A stretch of 64,000 nt of DNA from Demequina lutea (GTDB taxonomy: Bacteria > Actinomycetota > Actinomycetes > Actinomycetales > Demequinaceae): assembly GCF_013409005.1 (NCBI RefSeq), contig NZ_JACBZO010000001.1, positions 372,001 to 436,000 of the forward strand. The letters are read 5' to 3'. Position 1 is the stretch's first letter. The number at the start of each line of letters is the position of its first letter. Of this stretch, positions 56,670 to 61,731 are shown one piece after another. The notes beneath the pieces are model-generated. The model was not told where the DNA came from. It saw nothing but the letters and a program-made list of their open reading frames with translations, and ran no database searches. Made by a program: the position numbers and the translations under genes.

Positions 56670-56759
56670 GGCGTCGCACGGCGCCTTCCCCGCGCGAATC
56701 GTGTGGCATCACAACCTCCGCGGGGAGTTGGTCGTTCTTATGCCAACAAAGGGGGAACG

Positions 56760-57290
56760 GTGGCCGAGTACGAGGCGGTGTTGCGTGAGACGCTCGCGGA
56801 GGGTTCGGCGCGGCTCGCCGCGTACGGGTACCTGCTGACCGGCTCTCAAGACGCGGGTGAGGAGCTCGTTCAAGAGGCCGTCGTCAAGGTGTTCGCGCGC
56901 CGCCGAGCCATCCCCAATGCCCGTGCGGGCGAGGCCTATGTGCGCGCCACGATGCGCACGCTGCACGTCGACGGAATTCGCAGGGCCATCCGCTGGCGCA
57001 GGATCATGCCTAGTCAGGTGGCGCCGCTGGCCGCCGACGACTCGGCGGCGACGATCGACGCGGCCGACGCCATGGGCCAAGCGCTCACGACCCTTACTCC
57101 ACAACAGCGCACCGCAATCGTGTTGCGCTACTACGAAGACCTTTCTTTGGCCGCTGTCGCCGCCGCGATGGGTCTGGCGGTGGGGACGGTGAAGCGCTAC
57201 CTGTCCGACGCGCTCGGCCGCTTGGCGACCGCCGTGGGGGATCAGGACCTTGAGTTTGAACGCATTGCCGTAACCGAGAGGGGCGAGTGA
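56760..57290 (+). CDS. SigE-family ECF sigma factor (module D)
   Basis: 176 residues from GTG 56760, after AAAGGGGGAA. Region 2: RLAAYGYLLTGSQDAGEELVQEAVVKVFARRR with EAYVRATMRTLHVDGIRR. Region 4: ALTTLTPQQRTAIVLRYYEDLSLAAVAAAMGLAVGTVKRYLSDALGRL. The stop TGA shares one base with the partner ATG (TGATG). It starts an insertion of extra genes between topA and tmk and is clearly related to the sigma gene of module E (both have RLAAYGYLLTGSQ), suggesting local duplication. Confidence 0.9.
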   Translation: MAEYEAVLRETLAEGSARLAAYGYLLTGSQDAGEELVQEAVVKVFARRRAIPNARAGEAYVRATMRTLHVDGIRRAIRWRRIMPSQVAPLAADDSAATIDAADAMGQALTTLTPQQRTAIVLRYYEDLSLAAVAAAMGLAVGTVKRYLSDALGRLATAVGDQDLEFERIAVTERGE

Positions 57291-58588
57291 TGGACCTCCA
57301 CGAAGAACTCGAAAGGCGCGCACGGGCGGCCAGCGCTTCCGCCGCCGAGCGGCTCGGTGCCGCGAGCGCTGGTGACACTCTGGTTGCCCTGGTGGGGCGC
57401 CGTCGGCGCCGTCGCGCGACCGTCGTGACAGGGGTGAGCGCCGCTTGCGTGGCGGCCCTCGTTGTCGCCGCGTTGTACGTCGGGCCCTGGTCGCCCTCCG
57501 CCGTGGCTCCCGCCGGGCCGCCCGCCACCGCCACTACGGTGATCGATGCGTCGACTCCGCTCAACACCACGCCGTCTTGGTTGCCTCCGGATGCCGGGCA
57601 GGCGCCCCTCGCTTGCGGCGAGCCCTATGCCGTGCCGTCGGGCGCCACTCGACAAGTCGACGGCGCGAGCCAATTGCCCGTGACCATCACGGCATCGGCC
57701 GCGCTTGCGGGTGGAACCGATGGCGTTTTCACGGCGGCTGCGCACCCGCTCACGTGGAATGTGCAGGTCGCGTCCGCGGAGTCGCTCGCGGACCTCTATC
57801 TGGTTACCTATGGCGTCGTCGAGTCGAACGGTATCGTGGTTGGCTCGGCCACGCTGGGGGTCCAACCGCTCGTCGCTTCGGGCGTGGTCCCTACCCGAGA
57901 AGCGCCGACTCCAGGGTTGTGCGCAGGACAGGCCGGCTGGCACGACTCGCCAGATGGCGACTACACGTTCCACCTGTGGGTCCAACTGGTCGATGCCAAC
58001 TTCACAGCCGTTGCCACGGTCGTCGACCCGGTCGCGCCTACCACGCTGAAGATGAAGGAGATAGGGAAGTACTGGGGTGACGTGTTGGCAATCGACGGAT
58101 TGCCAAACGTGGAGGCTGTCCCCATCAAGTGCGGCGACCCGAGCCCCGTCGAGGGCCGGACGTGGGAGGCCGACGGCATGGTCTCTGCGTCGCTGCCTGC
58201 CGGCGCTGCGGTGCCTTTGGAGACTTCCAGCCTCTCCACGCGCCCATTGGACGCCAGTCCGGATTCAGCGAGTGCCCCGCGTCCGTCGGGCACCGACGCG
58301 AGCGACGGCATCTGGCAGTACGTTGAGGTCAAACTGAGTTCGAACCTCCTGCCGGGCACCTTTCCCGTCGCTCAGGGCTTCGCCGTGGCGAACGGGGTCG
58401 TCGTGGCGGTCGGCACGGTGGAATCGGGTCCACAGGCATTGGATTACAACCAGCCGCTGCGCGAGATGGACCCGATGGAGCCGTGCGGCGTGACCGACCC
58501 GGCGACCACGCAGGTCTACGTGCTGGAACTCGCGCTGGACTACAAGTACTCCACGCCGCAGGGCGCGGCGGTGATCAAGGTCGGCTAA
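57290..58588 (+). CDS. Membrane-anchored extracellular partner of sigma module D
   Basis: 432 residues from ATG 57290. Inner segment MDLHEELERRARAASASAAERL ends in RRRRRR, then one helix (VVTGVSAACVAALVVAALYV). The exterior has two related halves: APLACGEPYAVPSGATRQVDGASQLPVTI, and later PIKCGDPSPVEGRTWEADGMVSASL, so a Cys-Gly-Asp/Glu-Pro block begins each. Late motifs LPGTFPVAQGFAVANGVVVAVG and EPCGVTDPATTQVYVLELAL follow. The MDLHE start recurs in module E. It has no zinc motif. Anti-sigma/sensor function is inferred from the touching sigma gene and the topology. Confidence 0.7.
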   Translation: MDLHEELERRARAASASAAERLGAASAGDTLVALVGRRRRRRATVVTGVSAACVAALVVAALYVGPWSPSAVAPAGPPATATTVIDASTPLNTTPSWLPPDAGQAPLACGEPYAVPSGATRQVDGASQLPVTITASAALAGGTDGVFTAAAHPLTWNVQVASAESLADLYLVTYGVVESNGIVVGSATLGVQPLVASGVVPTREAPTPGLCAGQAGWHDSPDGDYTFHLWVQLVDANFTAVATVVDPVAPTTLKMKEIGKYWGDVLAIDGLPNVEAVPIKCGDPSPVEGRTWEADGMVSASLPAGAAVPLETSSLSTRPLDASPDSASAPRPSGTDASDGIWQYVEVKLSSNLLPGTFPVAQGFAVANGVVVAVGTVESGPQALDYNQPLREMDPMEPCGVTDPATTQVYVLELALDYKYSTPQGAAVIKVG

Positions 58589-58719
58589 GTGGATGCGGCA
58601 CCGGCCGCGCCCACCCATTCGTAGGACGCCGCGCCACTCCCACATCGGCCAGATTCAGGCTTGCCCAGGACAACGGTTTGGTGCCCCGATCCGTTCATGT
58701 GTCGACGGAGGGGGAATGC

Positions 58720-59247
58720 ATGAAGCATCAGGACATGTTGGGCGAGATGCTCGATTCTGCGGCCGACAGGCTCGCGGCGTACGGGTACCTGCTCACCGGA
58801 TCCCAGCACGCGGGCGAGGACCTGGTCCAGGACGCGATCGTCAAGGTCTTCGTGAGGCAGCGTCGGTTGGACAACGCGCGGGCCGCGGAGGCCTACGTGC
58901 GCGCCGCCATGCGGACGCTCCACATCGATCACATGCGGCGCGAGACGCACTGGCGGGGGCTGATGCCTCGACTCGTTGACCGCCGTGATCCTGAGCGAAC
59001 CGACGACGCGGTGGGCGAGCAGGACCGCATCGGCAAAGCGCTCGGCACCTTGGGAAAGCAGGAGCGGACCGTCGTCATCCTGAGGTTCTACGACGACCTC
59101 AAGGTCACCGACATCGCCGCCCAGATGCACCTCGCCGAGGGCACCGTGAAGAGGTATCTGTCGCAAGCACTCGACAAGCTCGCGGGCGAACTGGGAAGCA
59201 TCGATGACTCGACCGAGCGCATCGGCCTCGTGGAAAGGAAGAAGTGA
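58720..59247 (+). CDS. SigE-family ECF sigma factor (module E)
   Basis: 175 residues from ATG 58720, after GAGGGGG. Region 2: RLAAYGYLLTGSQHAGEDLVQDAIVKVFVRQRRL with EAYVRAAMRTLHIDHMRRE. Region 4: ALGTLGKQERTVVILRFYDDLKVTDIAAQMHLAEGTVKRYLSQALDKL. The frame continues upstream into the end of the module D membrane protein, but the family start and ribosome-binding site fix 58720. The 131 bases before it could contain its own promoter, which would separate modules D and E. Confidence 0.9.
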   Translation: MKHQDMLGEMLDSAADRLAAYGYLLTGSQHAGEDLVQDAIVKVFVRQRRLDNARAAEAYVRAAMRTLHIDHMRRETHWRGLMPRLVDRRDPERTDDAVGEQDRIGKALGTLGKQERTVVILRFYDDLKVTDIAAQMHLAEGTVKRYLSQALDKLAGELGSIDDSTERIGLVERKK

Positions 59248-59249
59248 TC

Positions 59250-60149
59250 ATGGATCTTCACGATGAGTTTGACAACTTTGCGCGGGCACGGGCCTCGGAG
59301 TCCGGTGCGCGCCTGCGTGGCGCCGATGCACGGGCGCGGCTTGACGCACGGGTGACCCGCGGGCGCCGAGTGCAGAACGCCAAGGTGGGCGTGGGGACGG
59401 TCGCCGCGGTGGGTGTGTTGGCAGCGGGAGTCGTCATGGTGCCGCGGCTTGGAGGCGGACTGTCGATGCCTGGTTCAACCTCGGTGCTCACGAGTGCTAC
59501 GGGGACGTCCGCGATTCCGACGGACTCGGGCACGTCCACGGCCACTCCTTTGCCGAGAGATGATCCGTCCAGACCCGGGATGGACGTGAAGCCGCCTGCG
59601 CTCGGAACGGACGGCTACCTCGCCGCAGCCAACACGCAGTGGGACGCGCCGGGCCCGCTTAGCTGCAAGTCGCTGGCCGCATCGGAACCCGAGACGGGCG
59701 TCGGCTACGACATGCAGCGACAGCGGGTGCCACTGCCCTCGTGGCTCGAGACCGGTCGCCTCTATGGCTGGGGTGCAGGCATTCCCGCAGGCGGGTCTCC
59801 GATTCCCCTTGCCGCGAGCGATCAAGCCAACTTCAGCTCCGTGCAGGCACTCGTTGCGGACTTCTCGGCCGGTCCCGCGGAACTCGCGTTGACCGGAGCA
59901 GACGGGTCGGTCTGGGGCTTCACCTTGGAGTGGTTCGAGAGGAGTGACCTCGCGCACGATGCGCAAGGTGTGTTCGTCACCGTGACACCGGACAAGGGCT
60001 GCAGCGCAGGCAAGCTGCCGTACGGTGGCTACGACGCACGGTTGTCCTACACGGCGGCTGACGGGTCCACTCAAGTCGTGACGCTCGACCCCATCACCGT
60101 GGTGCTCGGAGTCCCTTCGCTTCCCGAGGTGGATGCAGCCGGGCGCTAG
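59250..60149 (+). CDS. Membrane-anchored extracellular partner of sigma module E
   Basis: 299 residues, the shortest full partner. ATG 59250 is chosen with AAGGAAG upstream; GTG 59244 overlapping the sigma stop as GTGA is also possible. Inner segment MDLHDEFDNFARARASESGARL, then TRGRRVQNAK, helix VGVGTVAAVGVLAAGVVMV, then a Ser/Thr/Pro linker. The exterior has GPLSCKSLAASEP, LTGADGSVWGFTLEWFERSDL and DKGCSAGKLPYGGYDARLSYTAADGS, ending DPITVVLGVPSLP. It is a single-domain version of the module D partner. Confidence 0.68.
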   Translation: MDLHDEFDNFARARASESGARLRGADARARLDARVTRGRRVQNAKVGVGTVAAVGVLAAGVVMVPRLGGGLSMPGSTSVLTSATGTSAIPTDSGTSTATPLPRDDPSRPGMDVKPPALGTDGYLAAANTQWDAPGPLSCKSLAASEPETGVGYDMQRQRVPLPSWLETGRLYGWGAGIPAGGSPIPLAASDQANFSSVQALVADFSAGPAELALTGADGSVWGFTLEWFERSDLAHDAQGVFVTVTPDKGCSAGKLPYGGYDARLSYTAADGSTQVVTLDPITVVLGVPSLPEVDAAGR

Positions 60150-60201: not shown

Positions 60202-60428
60202 CACGCTGCCCGCTGCCCGCGGCTGCCCGCTGCCCGCTGCCCGCGGCTGCCCGCTGCACGCTGCCCGCTGCCCGCGGCTGCCCGCTGCACGCTGCCCGCT
60301 GCCCGCGGCTGCCCGCTGCCCGCGGCTGCCCGCTGCCCGCTGCCCGCTGCCCGCTGCCCGCTGCCCGCTGCCCGCTGCCCGCTGCCCGCTGCCCGCTGCC
60401 CGCTGCCCGCTGCCCGCTGCCCGCTGCC
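60202..60428. repeat. Heptamer satellite (CCCGCTG)n
   Basis: About 225 bases of head-to-tail CCCGCTG, with scattered variants CCCGCGGCTG and CACGCTG. The last 90 bases are almost perfect. It lies between the end of module E and the first 80-bp palindrome. Open frames across it on both strands are only a consequence of the period and carry no protein-like features. Confidence 0.95.
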
Positions 60429-60432
60429 TGCC

Positions 60433-60512
60433 GCGTGAGCACCAAAAATCGACGTTCGCCTCGCAACCGCCGTTCGCCGCGGCGATCGAGTGTCGATAAG
60501 TGGTGCTCACGC
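60433..60512. repeat. 80-bp palindromic element, copy 1
   Basis: Outer 12-base arms GCGTGAGCACCA (60433-60444) and TGGTGCTCACGC (60501-60512) pair perfectly. After a 3-base mismatch, inner arms ATCGAC (60448-60453) and GTCGAT (60492-60497) also pair. The central 38 bases are GC-rich and may fold further. An element of exactly the same length and arms occurs at 61509-61588. Confidence 0.93.
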
Positions 60513-60580
60513 GACGCGCTCTGTCCACAGATCGCGGTGGCGGGCTCCGGTGCACCGTGGTCCGCGGGCACGGTGGGTTC

Positions 60581-61474
60581 ATGGACATCGTTCGAGTTCT
60601 CGACGAGTTAGGCGGAGCTGCCCGCCGCACCGAGTTGCTGTTGGCCGGCGTACCTGAGCGTTCGCTGCGCCGGTCGGTGCTGGACGGCCGAGTCAAGAAG
60701 CTGGGTCACGGCACCTATTCGCTCCCGTGGGCGGCGCCCGAGGTAGCTATTGCCAAGCTCTTTCGCGCGAGTCTTGGTTGCGTGACGGCATGTGAGCACT
60801 GGGGGTTGCCGGTGTGGGAGGACCACGGACTGCCGCACCTGGTCGTCCCTTGGGGGAGGTCCTCATCCAGGCGTGATCCGCGGGAACGCACTCGCGCGGT
60901 ATTGCACCGCACCTCGGCACCATTCCCGAGCGCTCTCTGGGTGCCCGTCGCGCAGGCGATCGACCAGGCGGGATGGTGCACGACGCCCGTGGGGCAGTTG
61001 GTGTTGGTTGACGCAGCGCTCCACTCAGGGGTGCTGATGCCCGGTGACCTCGCGCAGTTCGAGGTGCGGGGTGCCCGGCGTCGAGCTTGGCTCAGGCGCA
61101 TGGCCTCGGGTGCCGCAGAGTCGCCGCTCGAGACTGTCGCACGCGCCGCGTTCGTAACAGCGGGACTTTCTGTCAAGGAGCAGGTCATCGTTCCTGGTGT
61201 GGGGAGGGTGGACTTGGTGGTCGAGGATACGGTGGCAGTGGAACTCGATGGGTGGGAGTTCCATCGGAGTCGTGACGCCTTTGAGCGCGACCGGACTCGA
61301 GACCGTCTCATGCTCACACGCAACCTGCCCGTCATGAGGTTCACGGCTCGGGACCTTCGCTCGGATCCGCAGGCCATCCTGGCGCAGGTGGCCGAGGTGG
61401 CCGAGGTGGTGAGTGGGCCTGTGCGCCGAGACACCGCGCGCAGGCTCGCCTGGGTGTTTGGGCTCGGTCGGTGA
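60581..61474 (+). CDS. DUF559/Vsr-like endonuclease-domain protein with winged-helix N-terminus
   Basis: 297 residues from ATG 60581. The N-terminal 70 residues (VRVLDELGGAARRTELLLAGVPERSLRRSVLDGRVKKLGHGTYSLP) resemble the AbiEi-antitoxin-type winged helix. The C-terminal 100 residues are a PD-(D/E)XK-like fold of the DUF559/Vsr group: VIVPGVGRVDLVVEDTVAVELDGWEFH supplies the Asp and the ELDG, followed by DRTRDRLMLTRNLPVMRFTARDL. Such proteins are common, uncharacterised and often single in actinobacteria. It lies alone, framed by two identical-length palindromes, inside the extra block between topA and tmk. A nicking or cleaving activity on the palindromes is a hypothesis only. Confidence 0.78.
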   Translation: MDIVRVLDELGGAARRTELLLAGVPERSLRRSVLDGRVKKLGHGTYSLPWAAPEVAIAKLFRASLGCVTACEHWGLPVWEDHGLPHLVVPWGRSSSRRDPRERTRAVLHRTSAPFPSALWVPVAQAIDQAGWCTTPVGQLVLVDAALHSGVLMPGDLAQFEVRGARRRAWLRRMASGAAESPLETVARAAFVTAGLSVKEQVIVPGVGRVDLVVEDTVAVELDGWEFHRSRDAFERDRTRDRLMLTRNLPVMRFTARDLRSDPQAILAQVAEVAEVVSGPVRRDTARRLAWVFGLGR

Positions 61475-61508
61475 GTACCGCACGATTCGCGCTGACTGAT
61501 CGACCGTC

Positions 61509-61588
61509 GCGCTAGCACCACATATCGACGTTTGCCTTGCGCTCGCCGCACAGGCCTCTGCGTGAGTGTCGATTCATGGTGCTCACGC
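61509..61588. repeat. 80-bp palindromic element, copy 2
   Basis: Right arm TGGTGCTCACGC (61577-61588) is identical to copy 1. The left arm GCGCTAGCACCA (61509-61520) differs at two bases. Inner arms ATCGAC (61524-61529) and GTCGAT (61568-61573) are again intact, and the total length is again 80. The central part differs between copies, so arms and spacing are what is conserved. Confidence 0.93.
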
Positions 61589-61731
61589 GACGCTGAAGGG
61601 GACTCGTGGCTGGGGTGGGGGCGGGGGGAGCCCGGGGACTGGCGGCTGGGGCGATGAGAAGGCGGTGCGCACGCGCCCGGTGCCTCCTCCCGCCCGAAAC
61701 GTTACGAACCGTACGTGACTATGCTGGCCAC

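Follow-up and report, generated by a model that had tools for sequence, protein, structure and literature searches.

The gene at the center of this analysis, in a 64,000-nucleotide stretch of DNA (the window), lies between two copies of its own long palindromic repeat; in the families examined, extra copies lie mostly in intergenic positions, the repeats are specific to gene clades, and the gene itself holds a stable position. Such bracketing of a chromosomal nuclease gene recurs in many actinobacteria and, together with scattered sites in three families and lineage-specific repeat sequences, gives the system the look of an undescribed enzyme–repeat partnership. We regard as evenly balanced the proposal that a chromosomal nuclease here keeps a private family of long dyad sites, in a REPtron-like organization built on an unrelated enzyme. 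We lean slightly toward the broader reading that such genes form a widespread, undescribed class in Actinomycetota. In this reading, AbiEi-EDxHD nucleases would have evolved a REPtron-like life independently of HUH enzymes, each paired with a long double-stranded dyad family whose length is nearly fixed, and would switch specificity at fixed loci.

The gene and its predicted product

The gene (Table 1) is preceded by sigma/anti-sigma-like genes and followed by Gfo/Idh and tmk genes. On its domain matches and predicted structure, the window protein is an AbiEi-type DNA-binding region joined to an EDxHD nuclease whose nuclease residues are intact. It matches Pfam families PF18741, PF13338, and PF04480, with AbiEi_4 covering residues 3–49, and its AlphaFold model (pLDDT 93, pTM 0.90) has AbiEi (6y8q) and Rv2827c (1zel) as its first- and second-ranked Foldseek matches; the AbiEi fold, with an N-terminal winged helix, extends over the N-terminal ~170 residues. 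The nuclease domain matches I-Bth0305I (3r3p; Foldseek, TMt 0.78), while 3hrl was matched by profile and TnsA was a weak Foldseek match. In an alignment of 63 proteins from the genus, the EDxHD residues E184, D211, H228, and D237 are invariant within a PD-(D/E)XK-like core, as is D223, and E221 is conserved in at least 90%. C67, H109, and C133 are likewise invariant in this alignment and H86 nearly so, and these residues are possibly a metal site. PADLOC and NCBIfam returned weak partial matches only, and no AbiEii/DUF1814 nucleotidyltransferase toxin gene adjoins the window gene. Upstream of the unit, positions 56703–60149 hold two successive pairs of sigma-factor-like and putative anti-sigma-like genes.

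Table 1. Features of the bracketed gene and its surroundings, in window positions
Feature	Position	Strand	Remarks
Palindrome A, 86-bp dyad	60430..60515		upstream of gene; outer arms of ~22–27 bp conserved, center variable
TCCACAG motif	60524..60530	+	at -57 relative to the start codon; recurs at conserved positions before related genes
AbiEi-like DNA-binding protein fused to EDxHD/Vsr-type nuclease, 297 aa (predicted)	60581..61474	+	Pfam AbiEi_4 + REase_MTES_1575 + DUF559
Palindrome B, 86-bp dyad	61506..61591		downstream of gene, before Gfo/Idh oxidoreductase gene

The flanking palindromes

A sequence-only reading had described two 80-bp palindromes flanking the gene, A at 60433–60512 and B at 61509–61588. 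Rereading the sequence bore this out, and the symmetry continues a few bases past 80 bp on to 86 bp. The outer arms read GTGAGCACCA/TGGTGCTCAC, with GCTAGCACCA as the left arm of B, and both palindromes share the inner arms ATCGAC/GTCGAT around centers that differ. Palindrome A lies ~66 bp ahead of the start codon. Single-strand folding of A and B beats 200/200 shuffles (z -4.4 and -4.2), a foldability of single copies that can be expected of any dyad. No Rho-independent terminator was found at either palindrome, and Rfam gave sub-threshold matches only, to MIR4387 at palindrome A (24.6 of 84 bits) and to SAM-IV inside the gene (24.9 of 38 bits). A long CTGCCCG-type tandem array with a 7-bp unit (60205–60434) abuts palindrome A at its end. 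The TCCACAG motif occurs upstream of 30 of the 75 genes in our genus sample, most often close to -57 or -85 relative to the start codon; in some genes it is followed by GGACGATGCG, and it resembles part of a DnaA box.

When the arm pattern was searched with up to two mismatches, the 3.1-Mb genome gave nine matches, compared with two for a reversed control pattern. Eight of the nine pair into four dyads whose arms are the same distance apart, namely A, B, and two solo dyads (G000:C1:278.8 kb and 1029.6 kb), neither of which adjoins a DUF559 gene; the ninth, at 514.8 kb, is degenerate and was left out of the copy count. The family comprises about 16 elements in four related species (G000, G039, G033, and G034), all of 86–88 bp. 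In G039, a sister gene at the corresponding topA-gfo site encodes a protein 57% identical to the window protein, and its dyads share the outer half with the window family (CGTCGCGYSAGCACC) while the inner half is changed.

Association of genes and repeats within and beyond the genus

Homologues were found in all 44 genomes of the genus sample, one to seven per genome. For 75 of these genes, we compared each upstream flank with the gene's own downstream flank, using the downstream flanks of other genes as the control. At a score of at least 14, a cutoff picked after scores had been viewed at several cutoffs, a matching flank repeat was present for 69% of the 75 genes, as opposed to 3.4% of mismatched flanks; the sample includes close orthologues, and so does not represent 75 independent events, and still counts a paralogue at 2.087 Mb that we later rejected. 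Palindromes within a flank reached the same score in 25% and 25%, compared with 0 of 143 segments taken ~1 kb away. The pattern extends outside the genus, where a flank repeat was shared at 67% of 24 loci versus 2% in the mismatched control; one of these loci comes from another genus of the family, further ones represent several families within the order, and an Amnibacterium MAG, Schaalia, Actinomyces, and Gordonia are also included. About a third of genes have no detectable matched flank repeat.

Repeat sequence varies from gene to gene and is common mainly to proteins more than ~45% identical. Genomes that carry a given gene clade also hold that clade's repeat family (8/8, versus 6/36 other genomes, p = 2e-5), and a second clade–family pair behaves in the same way (3/3 versus 4/41, p = 0.003). 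With the flank controls, this co-occurrence supports the earlier suggestion of a link between the palindromes and the DUF559-type gene. Tracking of arm sequence by the winged helix and by the nuclease gave correlations of 0.20, 0.21, and 0.19, too alike to separate the two domains.

Length, center, and symmetry of the repeat families

Dispersal was followed in three of the repeat families associated with these genes, and we found 1–15 repeat copies per genome. All 49 distinct elements of the GTACCGCTCAACACAC family in the fetched loci are exactly 104 bp long, and the 33 elements of the GACAGTTTGAACCAA family ("95-bp") measure 95–97 bp. The 104-bp family shares its 88-bp arm spacing with a third arm family, ATCGGTTTGGCCCACA, whose center is also similar. 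The 104-bp center is hypervariable, yet G is invariant at positions 21, 30, 39, and 48 (TGNGRCNNR, mirrored), and conservation is phased every 9 bp (lag-9 autocorrelation 0.87); an exact length combined with a hypervariable center phased in this way makes the family a striking DNA object in itself. Two C-type halves at positions 18/87 occur in none of its 49 elements, which indicates that the halves of an element are non-equivalent. An inner motif of the 95-bp family, CGACACGCCG/CGGCGTGTCG, is also present in palindromes that otherwise belong to different families.

The length and arms of the repeat sites are strongly constrained, without covariation of the kind expected of a hairpin. Across the dyad, pairing between variable columns was no better than with random partners: the 104-bp center scored 0.539 against 0.556 (n = 49, z -1.9), covariation in the 95-bp family was near zero (n = 21 and 11), and there was none in the window family either (n = 5 and 9). 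The idea, raised from the window sequence, that selection acts on hairpin structure therefore finds no support in any of the three families, and we reject it for the columns tested; a double-stranded, protein-binding dyad fits better.

A protein-binding site could also be an operator. The AbiEi-like domain would then repress its own gene from palindrome A, with the other copies serving as a small regulon or as decoys and the nuclease acting elsewhere. The absence of hairpin covariation suits a protein site of this kind, AbiEi and Rv2827c do bind inverted repeats of ~23 bp at their promoters (PMC7319586), and A lies close upstream of the start codon beside the position-conserved TCCACAG. We nevertheless think it unlikely that the palindromes are operators, since the copy downstream of the gene is equally regular and a pure operator does not need one exact or near-exact length, here 86–104 bp, in every copy. 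In addition, solo copies are frequent between convergent genes, a setting in which one would not expect a promoter (17 of 45 classified elements of the 104-bp family versus 5 of 49 other neighboring gene pairs at the same loci, as judged with a crude gene caller).

Stability of the gene and turnover of the repeats

The genes occupy mostly three loci, between hpt and ftsH, upstream of tRNA-Trp, and between topA and gfo, and these are their neighbors in many relatives, often with 35–40% protein identity between species. At hpt-ftsH, different species carry different gene clades, and repeats of the former allele's family appear to persist where the gene now belongs to another clade; relic arms that have no cognate gene show no significant excess of decay (1.46 versus 1.04 mismatches, p = 0.28).

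Many solo repeats sit at orthologous places across species, and some have turned over. One solo repeat is absent from its orthologous site in G029, which may represent a loss, since the site is occupied in other species, and two further orthologous sites in this genome carry another arm family. In G030, 95-bp repeats adjoin 104-bp repeats, and the orthologous sites in G027 and G041 are without them. By eye, no target-site duplication was recognized at the compared G029 and G030 repeat sites. At three G030 loci (L175, L178, and L181), a 104-bp element lies between two near-identical 95-bp elements, a layout like that of a gene between repeats; a gene found between two repeats of the 95-bp family in G021 looked ordinary. 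The sequence-only reading had held that arm pairs scattered independently of the gene, or a unit with no sign of movement, would count against a repeat-associated element. The arm pairs do prove to be scattered, yet they keep their link to the gene, which itself hardly moves, whereas solo repeats are gained and lost.

These patterns also bear on whether the unit is a selfish nuclease cassette whose ends, the dyads, are cut so that the gene is excised or copied; the solo copies would then be non-autonomous MITE-like derivatives or scars of gene loss. Such a cassette would account for a gene lying between two copies of one dyad that also occurs alone, its nuclease is of the homing-endonuclease type, and the topA-gfo site of the close species G033 is without the gene. 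Set against this, the genes keep to a few conserved loci, phage matches are absent and plasmid matches number two, both weak, we saw no sign that the gene had recently expanded to multiple copies, and in the 104-bp family the centers of solo copies are not recent copies of gene-flanking centers. We accordingly rate a cassette as improbable.

Relation to known systems and a possible mechanism

In a REPtron, a stable gene, single-copy per family, is flanked by cognate repeats that are also dispersed between genes (PMC8266576), and this is the layout seen here. As in REPtrons (TnpA_REP/RAYT with REP/BIME), a chromosomal, stable nuclease gene is flanked by cognate palindromes with intergenic copies, enzyme and repeat appear to change together, and clusters of mixed repeats occur. 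The components differ. The REPtron enzyme is an HUH Y1 tyrosine recombinase, whereas the protein here is predicted to combine an AbiEi fold with an EDxHD nuclease; REPs are 20–50-nt hairpins after GTAG or a similar sequence, recognized as folded single strands and present in hundreds of copies per genome, whereas the repeats here are less numerous dyads of 86–104 bp with no conserved GTAG foot in the inspected elements. Because the layout is like that of a REPtron but enzyme and site are unlike, we do not class the system as one.

The protein has other relatives. AbiEi antitoxins of type IV toxin–antitoxin systems (AbiE; Rv2827c) share the N-terminal fold and the inverted repeats in the promoter region; here, in contrast, a nuclease is fused, the AbiEii toxin gene does not adjoin, and sites also lie downstream and scattered. 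The homing endonuclease I-Bth0305I shares the nuclease fold, the EDxHD residues, and an unusually long target for its dimer, but the window gene is outside an intron and is not seen to disrupt its own target, and intact sites flank it. Single-domain Vsr/DUF559 endonucleases belong to the same nuclease superfamily (Pfam PF04480/PF18741) and differ in having neither the fused AbiEi-type DNA-binding region nor the link to dyad repeats. In the open-access papers that we searched, we found nothing relevant on DUF559 or AbiEi proteins with palindromes.

Returning to the partnership, we infer that the nuclease binds, cleaves, and mobilizes its repeats. Two protomers would use their AbiEi-type winged helices to bind the outer arms, recognized as double-stranded DNA, in the manner of AbiEi antitoxins, and their two EDxHD nuclease domains would meet over the center, as might be expected from I-Bth0305I, an EDxHD enzyme that dimerizes on a ~60-bp target (PMC3943268). 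Such an arrangement would explain both the dyad symmetry and the fixed length. If nicking or cutting were regulated, break repair could then copy sites into further intergenic positions without displacing the gene. The outcome of a cut that we favor is of this REPtron-like kind, in which repair maintains and spreads the sites and the gene is stable. A change of specificity would come about through allele exchange at the locus of the gene, and relic sites of the former family would remain. Several points speak against the partnership: intact targets of an active nuclease on the chromosome call for a safeguard, some genes have no detectable matched flank repeat, relic arms show no significant extra decay, no target-site duplication was recognized, and the one clear empty site, in G029, may be a loss. 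If the partnership is real, unrelated nucleases gave rise on more than one occasion to systems pairing an enzyme with dispersed palindromes, the large family currently annotated as "DUF559" or "AbiEi antitoxin" would gain a role, and many natural protein–site pairs, with arms of 16–27 bp, would become available for learning DNA specificity.

Distant paralogues

One genome-wide scan by protein gave only eight distant loci. The DUF559 paralogue at G000:C1:2,086,830–2,088,115 (L016) lies between 42-bp-spaced direct repeats, AGTGGCNCANTCTGTACCG, of which the genome holds 27; as these pairs recur genome-wide, we rejected it as a further example, and the repeats look like IS21-family ends with the gene as if cargo. 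Although this locus offers a precedent for unrelated MITEs or IS ends flanking such a gene by chance with the nuclease uninvolved, we consider that explanation very unlikely for the window gene, given gene-specific repeat families both in the genus and outside it, their sharing mainly among proteins more than 45% identical, and the matching families carried by gene-clade genomes. The 2.374-Mb paralogue has weak repeats only. At 590 kb in G000 (L015), the hpt-ftsH paralogue comes after a tandem duplication of 300 bp that is rich in CCGAACCAATCC, and GGATTGGTTCGGAC repeats follow the paralogue.
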